Of a stretch of 64,000 nt of DNA, positions 9,941 through 55,584 are shown piece after piece. Every line of letters begins with the position of its first letter. Position 1 is the first letter of the stretch. The notes beneath the pieces were generated by a model. The model was not told the origin of the DNA and did no database searches. It saw only the letters and a program-made list of their open reading frames with translations. The position numbers and the translations under genes are program-made. Source of the DNA: Ammoniphilus oxalaticus (GTDB taxonomy: Bacteria > Bacillota > Bacilli > Aneurinibacillales > RAOX-1); NCBI RefSeq assembly GCF_003609605.1, contig NZ_MCHY01000008.1:124001-188000 (forward strand). Direction: 5' to 3'.

Positions 9941-10198
9941 AGTTTGATAGCAAGAGGCTTTGAATGGGAGGAGTAAGCAGTGAAACCCGCTAGAGAATGG
10001 AATCCGTGGCTGGAAGATTCCTGGGGAGGTAGCTGGTGAAGGTAGCCCGTGAGCTTTTCTTCTGAAGTGAAGTAGGAGGAAACGGAACCCGTCCGTTATC
10101 GGGCTTAAGTGAGTATGGCGTTATTTTTGATCACGCTATATTAACAAAGGTGGTACCGCGAACTTCTTCGTCCTTTGGATGGGGGAGTTTTTTGTTTT
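9941..10198 (+). promoter_or_regulatory. T-box leader of valS with intrinsic terminator
   Basis: The canonical T-box AAGGTGGTACCGCG is at 10147-10160. The N position of TGGN is T, which pairs with an A discriminator of tRNA. Upstream is a stem-I-like region with AGTA near 9974 and AGAGA near 9990. The terminator is at 10161-10198: AACTTCTTCGTCC pairs with GGATGGGGGAGTT through several G-U pairs, followed by TTTTTTG. Uncharged tRNA should stabilise the antiterminator and raise valS expression. Candidate valine specifier codons are GTG at 10067-10069 and GTA at 10072-10074; which one is used needs folding. Confidence 0.93.
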
Positions 10199-14390: not shown

Positions 14391-15764
14391 GTGACAACTA
14401 CAACCGAGCATGTTCATTTTATCGGAATAGGCGGTTACGGGATGAGCGCGATTGCTAGGGTTTTAGTCGATATGGGACACAAAGTTAGCGGCTCTGATAT
14501 GGCCCGCAAGGAGCTAACGGATAAGCTGCTTGAACGCGGGGCCCAAGTGTATATTGGACATAAAGCTGAGAATGTGTCAGGGGCGGACATCGTCGTCTAT
14601 TCCACTGATATTCCAAAAGACAATGTAGAATTAAGGGAAGCGAAAAAGCGGAATATTCCGCTGATCCACCGTTCAGATATGTTAGCTCGTATTCTAAATG
14701 AGCGCTCAGGAATCGCTGTGTCGGGCGCGCACGGAAAAACGACAACCTCCTCTATGATCTCGCTTGTGATGGAAAAGGCGGGGGCGGACCCAACCTATAT
14801 TATCGGCGGCGAAATTTTAGATATTGGCAGTAATGCGCGGGCGGGCGATAGCCCGTATGTTGTTGCGGAAGCGGATGAAAGCGATGGCTCCTTTTTGAAA
14901 TACCACCCGCAACTTGCTGTCGTCACCAACATCGGTCCTGACCATTTGGAAAATTACGACGGTGATTTTGAAAATTTGAAACAGGCGTATTGCCAGTTTT
15001 TATCCCATATAAAAGAGGACGGAAAAGCGATTGTTTGCGCCGATGATGAATATATTCGCGAGCTCATCCCACAAATCAGCAGTGATGTGATCACTTATGG
15101 ATTGGATGAACGGGCCGACTTTACCGCGGAAGACATCGTGTATGGCGATCGAACGATCACATTCAAAGTAAGACAGGGGAATCAAGTTTTAGGAGACATC
15201 AAACTCTCTGTGCCAGGAAGGCATAACATCCAAAATGCGTTGGCGACAATCATCGTCTGTCTGCAAGCGGGCATTCCTTTTGCCGACATTGCTGAGGTAA
15301 TCCAGCTTTTTCGAGGAGCAAAGCGTCGTTTCGAAGTGATTGGTGAGGAACGAGATGTTTTGATCGTGGATGATTACGCCCATCATCCGACTGAAATTGT
15401 AGCGACAATTCAAGCGGCTAAATCCACGAACCGTCGGATTATAGCTGTGTTTCAACCGCAACGATACACGCGCACATTTTTCTTGTTAGATGATTTTAGT
15501 CGCGCGTTTGCGGGAGCGGATCAAGTAATTATAACGGACATCTACTCCCCAGCTAACGATACAAGAATGGATGTTACGTCGGAAAAGCTAGTTGATTTGA
15601 TCAAGCAAAACTCGAATGAACAGGCTGTCTACATGCCGAGCAAAGACGACGTGTTTGACCACTTGAGCAAAATTAGTCAAGCGGGCGACATCGTGTTAAC
15701 GATGGGAGCGGGCGACATTTGGCAAGTGGCAATTCGGTTGCGTGATCATTTACAAGGGAAATGA
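14391..15764 (+). CDS. murC: UDP-N-acetylmuramate--L-alanine ligase
   Basis: Adds L-alanine to UDP-MurNAc, the first peptide step of peptidoglycan synthesis, in the cytosol. The 457-aa protein has N-terminal [17 protein letters not shown] loop GAHGKTTT at residues 112-119, [11 protein letters not shown], and [10 protein letters not shown] in the C-terminal domain; the order and length are standard for MurC. The start is GTG at 14391, with AGGAGAAGGATGGTGAT ending 8 nt upstream. In B. subtilis murC is not next to folC. Confidence 0.97.
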
Positions 15765-15859: not shown

Positions 15860-16046
15860 CTCTAAAGGGATAATTGACCCTTGCAGCATGGATTGAATGA
15901 ATATGAACGCTGCAGAGGGAGATTTGACCGTTACAGAGCGAATATCTCGTGTTATCTCTTTTATTTTCGCTGTAAAGGGAGTTTTGACCTCTCTATAGTG
16001 CTGCCGGTTGATCGTTTAACTGTAAAGGCACTTTCGACCTTTACAG
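15860..16046 (+). repeat. Cassette A: four ~27-nt imperfect palindromes spaced 50/60/50 bp
   Basis: Units begin at 15860, 15910, 15970 and 16020. The consensus is a left arm CTGTAACGG or CTGTAAAGG, a 9-nt loop like GAGATTTGA, and a right arm CCGTTACAG. The second and fourth units have the best dyads; the third has a degenerate right arm. The cassette sits between the end of murC and the end of the minus-strand pseudopilin genes, so it lies between convergent genes. The same unit occurs inverted at 54660-54847. Apart from this and the murC terminator the 15765-16112 interval is empty. Confidence 0.85.
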
Positions 16047-16112: not shown

Positions 16113-16721
16113 TTAGTTTAAACGATCCTTTAGCAGCTTTACTCGAATTGTATCAGTCGGAGCTGCCGTCTTATCCGCTTGAGCATGAACATTGTATTTT
16201 GTCCGATAAAAGTAGAAGTGGGCAATGATGAGCTCACCTTGTTCAATCCCAGAGCCACTTGGGATGGCTATATCATCTTTTTCTCCTTTACCATTGGCTT
16301 CATCTGTCAATGTCATATACTTCGGATTATCAACCACGCTTTCAGGTTCCATTAGTTCGATCCCGCTAATACATGGCGACAAGTCGTCTTCGTGAAAACC
16401 TTCGGATCGCTCACATAAGGTTAAATTTCTTTTCCCCGCATCATAATAGAGAACTTTATAATTTTTGCTCGCCCCATTCCACATTCTAAGCTCGTTTGAA
16501 TAGTCATTTTCCACATAATAAACCTGATTACTATCAGCCAGTATTTCCGACACCGTATTCAGTGTTGTTCGAATCTGAGCATCATCATTATATTTTTGAG
16601 TGGTCGTATTCCAATCTAAATTAATTGCGGAAAAGGCCATGAAAGCAACCCCTAGCACGATTGTACTAATGAACAGCGCAGCCATGATTTCAATAAGGGT
16701 CAGTCCTTTTTCATTATTCAT
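16113..16721 (-). CDS. Type IV pilin-like minor pseudopilin (PilW-like)
   Basis: Probable minor pilin primed for assembly of the type IV pilus. The N-terminus MNNEKGLTLIEIMAALFIS has a class III signal: cleavage would be after Gly, giving an N-terminal Leu and a Glu at +5, followed by a hydrophobic helix to about residue 27. The ATG at 16721 is preferred over GTG at 16730; GGGGTGAT lies 4 nt upstream. The 202-aa product has two cysteines in the globular part (LCERSEG and SPCISG) that may form a disulfide. Its start overlaps the end of the upstream PilV-like gene by 8 bp. Function is inferred from the signal and neighbours. Confidence 0.82.
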   Translation of the reverse strand: MNNEKGLTLIEIMAALFISTIVLGVAFMAFSAINLDWNTTTQKYNDDAQIRTTLNTVSEILADSNQVYYVENDYSNELRMWNGASKNYKVLYYDAGKRNLTLCERSEGFHEDDLSPCISGIELMEPESVVDNPKYMTLTDEANGKGEKDDIAIPSGSGIEQGELIIAHFYFYRTKYNVHAQADKTAAPTDTIRVKLLKDRLN

Positions 16722-17133
16722 CCTGATCACCCCAGCTTACGGTTACGAAGATGTCTTCAGGTATATATCCCCCACCAGTTTCTTTTTTTGCTAAGATCAC
16801 GGTAGCTAGTGATATAGAATGTTTAGAGGGAGCCACTCCATCAGTGTGTGTCGCTCGAATCGAAAAGGCGCCTGATTCTTTATTAAAATTATTTAGAAAT
16901 TCTGTCTGAAGTTTTTCGCTGCTATAAGGTGGTTCTTCCGCAGCTTCCTTTCGTATTTCATTAATCGTCTTTTCAGCTAGTTGCAAAGCCCTATATTGTT
17001 GATCGTCTTTTTGATCAGCGAGCAGTGTATATCCAGAGAGGTTAGCAAACATGAGGACAACGAGACTTAAAATAGCAGTTGCCGCCAATGTTTCAATCAA
17101 AGTTAGGCCTTTTTGATTATTTTTGATGTTCAT
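16714..17133 (-). CDS. Type IV pilin-like minor pseudopilin (PilV-like)
   Basis: The 139-aa protein has the prepilin signal NNQKGLTLIETLAATAILS (cleavage after Gly, Glu at +5) and a single N-terminal hydrophobic helix. The remainder is soluble and unlike the major pilins. The likely role is a pilus tip or initiation component, by analogy with PilV/GspI-type proteins. It is the first gene of a two-gene minus-strand operon, divergent from the PilX-like gene; a GAGG site lies 10 nt before the ATG. Confidence 0.82.
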   Translation of the reverse strand: MNIKNNQKGLTLIETLAATAILSLVVLMFANLSGYTLLADQKDDQQYRALQLAEKTINEIRKEAAEEPPYSSEKLQTEFLNNFNKESGAFSIRATHTDGVAPSKHSISLATVILAKKETGGGYIPEDIFVTVSWGDQDE

Positions 17134-22408: not shown

Positions 22409-22535
22409 ACAGGAAATGAGTGGTAATTATAAATGGGTCGTGATGATTTTCATTCTGTAGATGGGCGCTTAGAATGAAGGAAACGAGTAGCGCAACCGAA
22501 CCCGCCTCTATGTTGCGAGGGCGGATTTTTTTTGT
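22409..22535 (+). promoter_or_regulatory. Candidate riboswitch/attenuator leader of the major pilin gene
   Basis: Visible in the leader: stem TTCATTCT (22449-22456) with AGAATGAA (22471-22478); its loop contains GCGCT (22465-22469), which can pair with AGCGC (22489-22493) to form an H-type pseudoknot. CGCAAC (22491-22496) can instead pair with GTTGCG (22512-22517). The intrinsic terminator is CCGCCTC (22502-22508) with GAGGGCGG (22517-22524) and a run of eight T. The pseudoknot and the CGCAAC/GTTGCG stem share 22491-22493, and the latter disturbs the terminator, so the arms are mutually exclusive. I do not recognise the class; no c-di-GMP-I core such as GACGCAAAGCC is present. Confidence 0.65.
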
Positions 22536-37428: not shown

Positions 37429-37554
37429 TTTGTTGATATCATGTTTGACTCTCTGTCATACATGCTACAACCGCGCAGCTCAGGTAATCATAAGTCGATT
37501 TATTTCGCGCCTGTGTTTGGCGAGTCTGAGTATATGAATAGGGAGGTGCAGTGA
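37429..37554 (+). promoter_or_regulatory. Probable L21 leader (autoregulatory 5' UTR of rplU)
   Basis: An untranslated leader of about 125 nt precedes rplU, as in other Bacillota where an L21 leader RNA is known. CGCGCC near 37506 and GGCGAG near 37519 suggest a hairpin. Structure was judged by eye only. Confidence 0.45.
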
Positions 37555-53934: not shown

Positions 53935-53967
53935 ACACTTTTATATATAATGAAGGAGGGATTGTTT

Positions 53968-54297
53968 ATGGTTGAACTAGCGGCGTCACCACCAGGGGGG
54001 TTAGGCGGATCCTTTATACCTCTTATTCTAATGGTTGCTATTTTTTATTTTCTACTGATTCGTCCGCAACAACGGAGACAAAAGCAAAGGAACGCGATGT
54101 TAGGCGCGGTAAAGGTAGGAGATAAAATTGTTACGATTGGTGGAATTCATGGGACGATCATGTCATTAGATGATGGCAGTGTACAACTTCAAATTGCTGA
54201 TAACATCCAAATTACCATCGACAGACAAGCGATCAATCAGGTAAAAGCAAGTGATGCTGACACTGATACTGATACTGAAACTCTAACGACAACTTAG
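53968..54297 (+). CDS. yajC: Preprotein translocase subunit YajC
   Basis: Accessory of the SecDF translocon. The 109-aa protein has an N-terminal membrane helix (LILMVAIFYFLLIRPQQRRQK) and a small soluble domain GDKIVTIGGIHGTI. ATG 53968 lies after AAGGAGG. The Ser/Thr/Asp-rich tail (DADTDTDTETLTTT) is degenerate repeat sequence. Confidence 0.95.
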   Translation: MVELAASPPGGLGGSFIPLILMVAIFYFLLIRPQQRRQKQRNAMLGAVKVGDKIVTIGGIHGTIMSLDDGSVQLQIADNIQITIDRQAINQVKASDADTDTDTETLTTT

Positions 54298-54309
54298 ATG
54301 CGAAGTAGC

Positions 54310-54356
54310 GGGCGTGAGAGAAACGTATGTTTTTCTTGCGCCTGTTATTATTTTGG
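54310..54356 (+). terminator. Probable terminator after yajC
   Basis: GGCG..AGAGAAA pairs with TTTCTT..CGCC over an ~8-nt loop; downstream is TTATTATTTT. Confidence 0.65.
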
Positions 54357-54423: not shown

Positions 54424-54609
54424 TTAGTTGGACTTTTGTCAACTAAGTAGGGTACAACCGATTTGGTAGGCCCAATAGATGGACATCTGTCAACTAAGGT
54501 GATTTATCTGCCTGAAAAAGGGGTAGAGAGCTCAATAGATGGACTTGCGACAACTAACTTTGGTCAAATCTCATCCTCAAGTTTACATAAGTGGACTTTA
54601 GACAACTAT
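54424..54609 (+). repeat. Cassette C: four 23-nt palindromic units spaced 51/60/52 bp
   Basis: Units begin at 54424, 54475, 54535 and 54587. The best copy has arms TTAGTTgGAC and GTCAACTAA around TTTT, with one bulged G. The others read ATAGATGGAC...CAACTAA or ATAAGTGGAC...CAACTAT. The spacer between units three and four contains GGTCAAATCTC (54562-54572), the core of cassette B. It lies just downstream of yajC and beside cassette B. Confidence 0.85.
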
Positions 54610-54659
54610 GGGCAGTCGTCGTTTGGATCAGCGTGGCGAGATACAACATCTCGACCCTT

Positions 54660-54847
54660 CTGTAATGGTCAAATCTCCCGTTACAGAATAGACGGATGAA
54701 GAATTGCCTCTGCAACGGCCGATACTCCCGCTAGAGCCTCCGATCCAGATAAATACATCTATATTATGAATGTAAAGGTCTGGAAGCCCCTTACAGAATG
54801 AATTACAATGAAAAGCTCTGCTGTAACGGTCAAATCTCCCGCTAGAA
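54660..54847 (-). repeat. Cassette B: inverted copy of cassette A, four ~27-nt palindromes spaced 50/60/51 bp
   Basis: Units begin at 54660, 54710, 54770 and 54821. Read on the minus strand, the first is CTGTAACGG-GAGATTTGA-CCATTACAG, matching the 15860-16046 cassette; the third is more diverged. The remaining sequence to 55025 holds only the yrzE terminator. The site lies between the convergent yajC and yrzE genes. Confidence 0.85.
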
Positions 54848-55025: not shown

Positions 55026-55409
55026 TTATTTAGTTGACTGTGACAAGTTGACACCAAGCACTCCGCCAAGCGCGCCGACGACGAAAGCGATCACCAAAAA
55101 TAAGAGCACGGAAAGTTGGGGGGCAACATCAAAAGCAAGAAATCCGATAAGAAAGACAAGTATAAAGTAAGCCACTCCTGTTAAGCCGCCAAAATACCAT
55201 CCTTTTTGTCCCCCTCTTCGCCCAGCTATGTATCCGCCAATTAATAAGCTCAATCCATTAATACTGTAAGTGAAGTAAGGTAAAGTGAGCTCACTCATTT
55301 GACTAAAATGCAACAACAACGATGTAAGTAGTGAGCCAATGACGACGAGCCCAAGTGTGGTAAGCGCCCCCGTGATGATCGGAGAAGACGAACTAGCGAT
55401 CGTTTTCAT
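55026..55409 (-). CDS. yrzE: TIGR04086/YrzE-like membrane protein
   Basis: The 127-aa protein has four hydrophobic helices and Gly-rich turns (GGYIAGRRGGQKGWYFGGLTG). It matches the TIGR04086/YrzE family, located beside yajC in B. subtilis. ATG (complement at 55407-55409) is preceded by GGGAGGG; a longer frame to 55427 has no better site. It is on the opposite strand from its neighbours. Function unknown. Confidence 0.82.
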   Translation of the reverse strand: MKTIASSSSPIITGALTTLGLVVIGSLLTSLLLHFSQMSELTLPYFTYSINGLSLLIGGYIAGRRGGQKGWYFGGLTGVAYFILVFLIGFLAFDVAPQLSVLLFLVIAFVVGALGGVLGVNLSQSTK

Positions 55410-55584
55410 AGTTAAAAACCCTCCCAAAATAAATATGCAATTTGTACAATCTATGTTGGGACAGGGCTGTTTATGACAGGCTGTCTAACTTTGAAAAATG
55501 GGTGAGTTGGTAAAGATTCGATTACATAGATGTTACCCGTCAAGTTCAAACTAGGAAATAATCGCTGTAACGAGGAGGATTCCA

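Follow-up and report, generated by a model that had tools for sequence, protein, structure and literature searches.

Regularly spaced four-dyad arrays at gene ends of Ammoniphilus oxalaticus and other Bacilli: a predicted protein-binding platform

Results and discussion

Two four-dyad cassettes and a sister array lie between convergent genes

The window analyzed here is a 64,000-nucleotide stretch of the Ammoniphilus oxalaticus genome (C8:124001-188000). It contains a cluster of four imperfect palindromes of 27 nt (cassette B), whose starts are spaced by 50, 60 and 51 bp and which is directly preceded by a second four-dyad array; both arrays are located between the ends of two convergent ORFs, one YajC-like and one encoding a TIGR04086/YrzE-like membrane protein (Table 1). 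The sister array shares the layout of cassette B and differs from it in the arm, representing a sub-family TARNNG-N9-CNNYTA (TAGTTG-N9-CAACTA type). A further four-dyad cluster on the opposite strand, cassette A, is found 38.8 kb away, between convergent MurC-like and prepilin-like ORFs. Names of the genes flanking cassettes A and B were read from translations and gene order, without a domain search; the order of the YajC-like and TIGR04086/YrzE-like genes was also checked in the orthologs of relatives. A search of the window against Rfam 15 at gathering score yielded three matches, all outside cassette B, i.e., a T-box leader, a cyclic di-GMP-II riboswitch and an L21 leader.

Table 1. Positions of the arrays, their units and neighboring features within the window
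Feature	Position	Strand	Remarks
T-box leader	9951-10178		Rfam 15
MurC-like ligase ORF	14391..15764	+	left flank of cassette A; name from translation
Cassette A	15860..16046	-	gaps 50/60/50
Cassette A dyads	15860-15886, 15910-15936, 15970-15996, 16020-16046	-	
Prepilin-like ORF	16113..16730	-	right flank of cassette A; name from translation
Cyclic di-GMP-II riboswitch	22428-22510		Rfam 15
L21 leader	37459-37537		Rfam 15
YajC-like ORF	53950..54297	+	left flank of the 54425-54847 arrays; convergent partner; name from translation and gene order
Terminator-like site	54305-54348		before the arrays
Sister four-dyad array	54425..54608	+	directly upstream of cassette B; gaps 51/60/52
Sister array units	54425-54445, 54476-54496, 54536-54556, 54588-54608	+	
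Cassette B	54660-54847	+	start spacing 50/60/51
Cassette B dyad 1 CTGTAATGGTCAAATCTCCCGTTACAG	54660..54686	+	centre 54673
Cassette B dyad 2 CTGCAACGGCCGATACTCCCGCTAGAG	54710..54736	+	centre 54723
Cassette B dyad 3 ATGTAAAGGTCTGGAAGCCCCTTACAG	54770..54796	+	centre 54783; most degenerate, score 14.6
Cassette B dyad 4 CTGTAACGGTCAAATCTCCCGCTAGAA	54821..54847	+	centre 54834
TIGR04086/YrzE-like membrane protein ORF	55026..55427	-	right flank; convergent partner; name from translation and gene order

The original prediction, made from the letters of the window, had reported that cassettes A and B share one 27-nt unit and that both lie between convergent gene ends. We confirmed both points: the eight units have 9 invariant columns and a mean column identity of 81%, and the 23-nt core of the unit matched the window three times as compared to none in 100 shuffles. 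The spacing of 50/60/51 assigned to both cassettes is exact for cassette B, while that of cassette A is equal to it within 1 bp. Neither the sister array nor the genome-wide family to which these arrays belong had been part of the prediction.

The cassettes belong to a genome-wide family of arrays

The unit has the consensus CTGTAANGG-N9-CCNTTACAG. With a position weight model, 157 non-overlapping units were found in the window and 20 further stretches of 20 kb each, and at a threshold of 12 the unit model gave 168 matches in the sampled DNA as compared to 0 in one shuffled version. Within the approx. 460 kb sampled of the 3.3-Mb genome the units form 27 arrays; 15 of the 20 stretches were picked around known matches, and the genome statistics thus refer to sampled stretches that were mostly so chosen. 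Three clear arrays were present in a less biased sample (164 kb, made up of the window and the remaining five stretches), and a rough extrapolation gives about 60 arrays per genome. Arrays contain 2 to 16 units, most commonly four (11 of the 27 arrays), and cassettes A and B represent the basic four-unit form of the family.

Spacing within the arrays was nearly invariant. Of 132 centre-to-centre gaps, 77 measured 50-52 bp and 52 measured 60-63 bp (together 129; the exceptions were 85, 99 and 110 bp), with the two classes alternating almost throughout the arrays. Most units in this genome share one orientation; where single units are flipped (e.g., orientations --++, -+-++ and +++-), the spacing of the centres is unchanged. 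The arrays that supplied these gaps were detected without using geometry, and since the geometry scans described below searched for a set layout, the gap statistics of the 27 arrays are the only ones free of that choice.

Units from different arrays were 70% identical, as compared to 28% for spacers (26% for shuffled spacers), even though spacer lengths are constant within about 1-3 bp between arrays. As the units alone match and the spacers do not, cassette B is not a copy of cassette A, contrary to what had been proposed. Conversely, spacers within one array are near-duplicates (79-85% identity); long arrays are tandem duplications of a pair of about 111 bp.

Two further observations concern the surroundings of the arrays. 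A repeat family, TTTTACTAAACAATATTGTGGGT and its variants, is clustered in two regions (G000:C9:562000-581999 and 618000-637999, i.e., L037 and L038; G000 is the genome studied here), often near dyad arrays. In L028 (G000:C6), a six-unit array and a two-unit array are separated by two ORFs (14534-15659) whose translations resemble OrfA and OrfB of an IS3-type transposase; an insertion sequence may have split what had been one array.

The geometry recurs in other Bacilli with different arms

The window-type consensus had no matches across 84,980 GTDB species and none in 80 sampled relatives. The unit sequence itself is specific to this genome; the geometry is not. (In a separate comparison, the oxalyl-CoA decarboxylase at G000:C11:117032-118681 scored above the NCBIfam cut-off here and not in relatives G001-G003.) The four-dyad layout was found in seven other Bacilli genomes representing four families. 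In relatives G001 and G002 the first geometry scan recovered it with arms unlike those of the window (AATARCGG-N9-CCGYTATT); units of both kinds have TARNGG as half-site and the same inner N9. Among 300 Bacilli, the pattern TARCGG-N9-CCGYTA occurred far above its reversed-pattern control in only a handful, indicating a patchy distribution: 144 vs 0 matches in G001, 20 vs 0 in G002, 39 vs 7 in G119, 26 vs 3 in G033, 12 vs 0 in G226, 12 vs 2 in the genome studied here and 133 vs 3 in G026. The last was rejected as a cassette genome; the locus read there (C4 about 88,670, L192) is a 41-bp tandem array of TARCGGCATCCRGTGCCGTTA units.

Gaps were 51/62/51 in G001 and 51/61/51 and 51/62/51 in G002. 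Three genomes, each from another family, showed gaps of 50/61/50 (G033), of 50/62/50, 51/62/51 and 51/72/51 (G119), and of 52/73/52 (G226), and a Paenibacillus thermotolerans record gave a weaker match (score 27). This match, the first geometry scan and the gap read-outs of the other genomes all come from scans set to look for this geometry. A survey of adjacent AATARCG half-sites points to families f1, f5, f21 and f33; in f33 (G104 and G255), AATAACG is repeated every 52 bp, with a TTGACAGCTTT...AAAGCTGTCA-like palindrome inside, and seems to belong to another class of tandem repeat. Among the viral contigs listed for AATAACG-N43-45-AATAACG, 79 of 80 had a single hit, which we read as chance.

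Across genomes the long gap measures 61-62 or 72-73 bp, the two lengths differing by roughly one turn of the helix. With 10.5 bp per turn, all gaps share one phase (coherence 0.92), although the helical period is constrained only loosely because the phase rests on two main gap classes. Two sub-types occur in G001, G002 and G119. One has symmetric units; the other is globally inverted, its first two units pointing towards the last two, with AATAACG on the inner side and TGTCCG or GGTCCG on the outer. In the central gap, several G033 cassettes share AATACTTCGCATAAT (on either strand) and some of those in G001 have a TTGCAAACGTTTGCA-like palindrome; the centre may thus hold a fifth site.

Arrays are enriched in convergent gaps and, at two orthologous loci, their dyads are conserved

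With genes called as simple ORFs, 14 of the 26 classifiable arrays of this genome were located in convergent gaps, as compared to 68 of 410 gaps overall (P = 4e-5), and only one of the 26 in a divergent gap. Pooled data from five genomes, in which a few loci are counted twice, gave 32 convergent, 34 tandem and 3 divergent locations. Comparison of 138 flanking proteins, all against all, did not reveal any convincing cassette-adjacent gene family across genomes; just two pairs linked proteins of different genomes, both weakly (23-32% identity).

Two G119 cassettes are both present, beside the same gene, in G305 and G376 of the same genus. Between G119 and G376, identity at the two loci was 80% and 88% for dyads, 63% and 61% for spacers and 56% and 52% for flanks; the gene adjoining the first locus showed 84% DNA identity. 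In a small test pooled over these two loci of one genus, dyads (84%) were significantly more conserved than spacers (62%; P = 2e-6) and flanks (54%; P = 2e-9). The more distant G394 has no cassette at either locus, and cassette B is absent from the orthologous yajC/yrzE gap (46-233 bp) in three relatives of the same family. These comparisons indicate that cassettes are gained and lost and, for the two loci of one genus, that their dyads are maintained while present.

The original prediction had called the element dispersed and either functional or mobile rather than due to chance. Dispersal and function are supported by dozens of arrays, by a geometry that recurs across genera and families and by orthologous dyads more conserved than spacers and flanks; mobility is not, as array ends show no conserved terminal repeats or target duplications. 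The same evidence bears on a reading of the cassettes as clusters of recombination or transposition sites, in which the two inner-facing pairs would delimit a minimal non-autonomous element or form the synaptic site of a recombinase. The globally inverted sub-type in G002, G119 and G001 would fit such a role, as would the variable presence of a cassette at a given locus between species. On the other hand, conservation reaches no further than about 15 nt from the centre of the outer dyad, flanking direct repeats are not in excess, spacers are unrelated between copies, and single cassettes persist with conserved dyads; moreover, blastn searches of plasmids with the window arrays and of phages with a G119 cassette gave no match. 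We consider this explanation unlikely.

The units are probably double-stranded dyads rather than hairpins

The half-site can be written as TARNNG facing its inverse across 9 bp. If the units acted as hairpins, a possibility raised by the original prediction in its proposed checks for compensatory arm changes and bidirectional termination, the two arms might be expected to covary. The comparison of arm pairs did not reveal any compensatory changes: among 80 non-redundant units, an excess of Watson-Crick pairing over chance was significant at 0 of 13 symmetric position pairs, and both half-sites draw independently on one degenerate alphabet (C T S Y A R N G G). In G001, the most variable symmetric pair was likewise independent (32 observed against 34.4 expected); some excess, seen at one pair in G002 and at two further pairs in G001, is attributed to the mixing of the two sub-types. 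As the arms do not covary and the half-sites share a degenerate alphabet, we interpret the units as double-stranded protein-binding dyads, and this pattern would be the signature of a site read by a dimer rather than of a selected hairpin. Independent half-site variation within a shared alphabet, together with dyads conserved above their spacers, likewise fits a predicted cluster of protein-binding dyads.

An RNA-level role, as bidirectional terminators or as hairpins stabilizing 3' ends, would agree with the location of the sites at 3' ends and in convergent gaps, with the A and T bases that flank G001-type units and with the fold of the first unit of cassette B (z -5.5). The other three units of this cassette fold no better than shuffled sequence, however, and the fixed 50/61/50 spacing would have no obvious purpose for hairpins. 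Moreover, cassette B has no G+C-rich stem followed by a T-run and is rejected as an intrinsic terminator; the only terminator-like site found precedes the arrays (Table 1). Together with the independent arms, these findings make an RNA-level role very unlikely.

REP/REPIN-like elements would be hairpins that owe their spread and maintenance to a RAYT (Y1 tyrosine transposase). The cassettes resemble them, as their units are palindromic, intergenic and arrayed, at 3' ends and in convergent gaps, and REPs are reported to be palindromic intergenic units that prefer convergent or unidirectional gaps (PMC3733652). REPINs, in contrast, commonly show compensatory changes (PMC3116915), which the arms lack, the poor folding of three of the four cassette B units also argues against a hairpin, and the consensus does not begin with a GTAG or CGTC tag. 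A RAYT elsewhere in the genome had been suggested as a partner. The genome has one Y1_Tnp hit, in a RAYT-like 156-aa ORF (G000:C9:610287-610616; L023:1468-1938), and hits of similarly low score occur in G001-G003. This ORF looks truncated or disrupted, its C-terminus departing from the family, no unit of the array family was found in its inspected surroundings, and Y1_Tnp gave no hit in array-bearing G033 and G226 (98-99% complete). A RAYT-driven origin, already weakened by these results, is therefore very improbable. MITEs and CRISPR arrays were rejected as well, the former for want of terminal inverted repeats and target-site duplication, the latter because the repeats are degenerate rather than near-identical and spacers are duplicated within arrays.

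A predicted nucleoprotein platform at gene ends

Overall, we regard it as reasonably probable that the cassettes are clusters of four phased, predicted protein-binding dyads at gene ends. Each cassette would bind a putative dimeric DNA-binding protein, or paralogues, at four double-stranded dyad-symmetric sites with centres at about 50, 61 and 50 bp, i.e., about 5, 6 and 5 helical turns, the long gap sometimes being one turn longer. Four dimers held in constant helical phase could form one higher-order nucleoprotein complex, probably looped or wrapped; placed between gene 3' ends, it would serve as an architectural or insulating node. Larger arrays would arise by tandem duplication of the pair of about 111 bp. 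An architectural, insulating or supercoil-related role, as proposed for E. coli BIMEs, is suggested less strongly than the binding of a protein, as we infer it from location at gene ends alone. As a more tentative proposal, somewhat less probable than not, the cassettes may constitute a helically phased four-dyad node, in dozens of copies per genome and in several families of Bacilli, that organizes or insulates the chromosome at gene ends, the putative protein having changed its DNA specificity from lineage to lineage without any change in the 50/61/50 geometry.

Our best reading is thus of a widespread, predicted protein-binding platform at gene ends that is apparently undescribed; we came across no account of it in the open-access literature. 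Palindromic repeats between genes are usually attributed to RAYT-driven REPs or to terminators, and this class of cassettes fails both tests while showing strict geometry across several families of Bacilli and site conservation above the surroundings in individual copies. It predicts a sequence-specific DNA-binding protein that acts at gene ends, and could provide a clean system for asking whether complexes with an architectural or insulating role are placed between convergent genes in bacteria.

Comparison with known systems

CRISPR arrays also consist of short repeats at a regular distance; in the cassettes, on the other hand, repeats are degenerate, and spacers come in two alternating lengths and nearly duplicate one another inside an array. 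Bacterial MITEs (e.g., bcr1 of Bacillus cereus) are likewise short, dispersed and intergenic, but in the cassettes terminal inverted repeats outside the dyads are lacking, target duplications are not in excess, and spacers are unrelated between copies. The CIRCE operator, which is the binding site of HrcA (TTAGCACTC-N9-GAGTGCTAA), has the same 9-N9-9 dyad format of 27 bp; the cassettes differ from it in sequence, in having four sites in phase and in being located at gene ends rather than promoters. REPINs are similar in having short palindromes in fixed-distance pairs and a spacer less conserved than the ends, and differ in their compensatory changes and in a basic unit that is an inverted doublet instead of four dyads.

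The BIME/REP arrays of enterobacteria share with the cassettes palindromic units, short and regularly spaced intergenic arrays, mostly convergent or co-directional gaps, and a copy number that varies by tandem duplication (here from 2 to 16 units). Unlike these arrays, the cassettes have neither a GTAG/CGTC tag (the arms in other genomes being AATARCGG) nor arm covariation, their units mostly share one orientation, and spacing is constant to about 1-3 bp around four dyads. As a kind, the cassettes are closest to BIMEs, from which they are set apart by their geometry, by the absence of hairpin constraint and by needing no RAYT.
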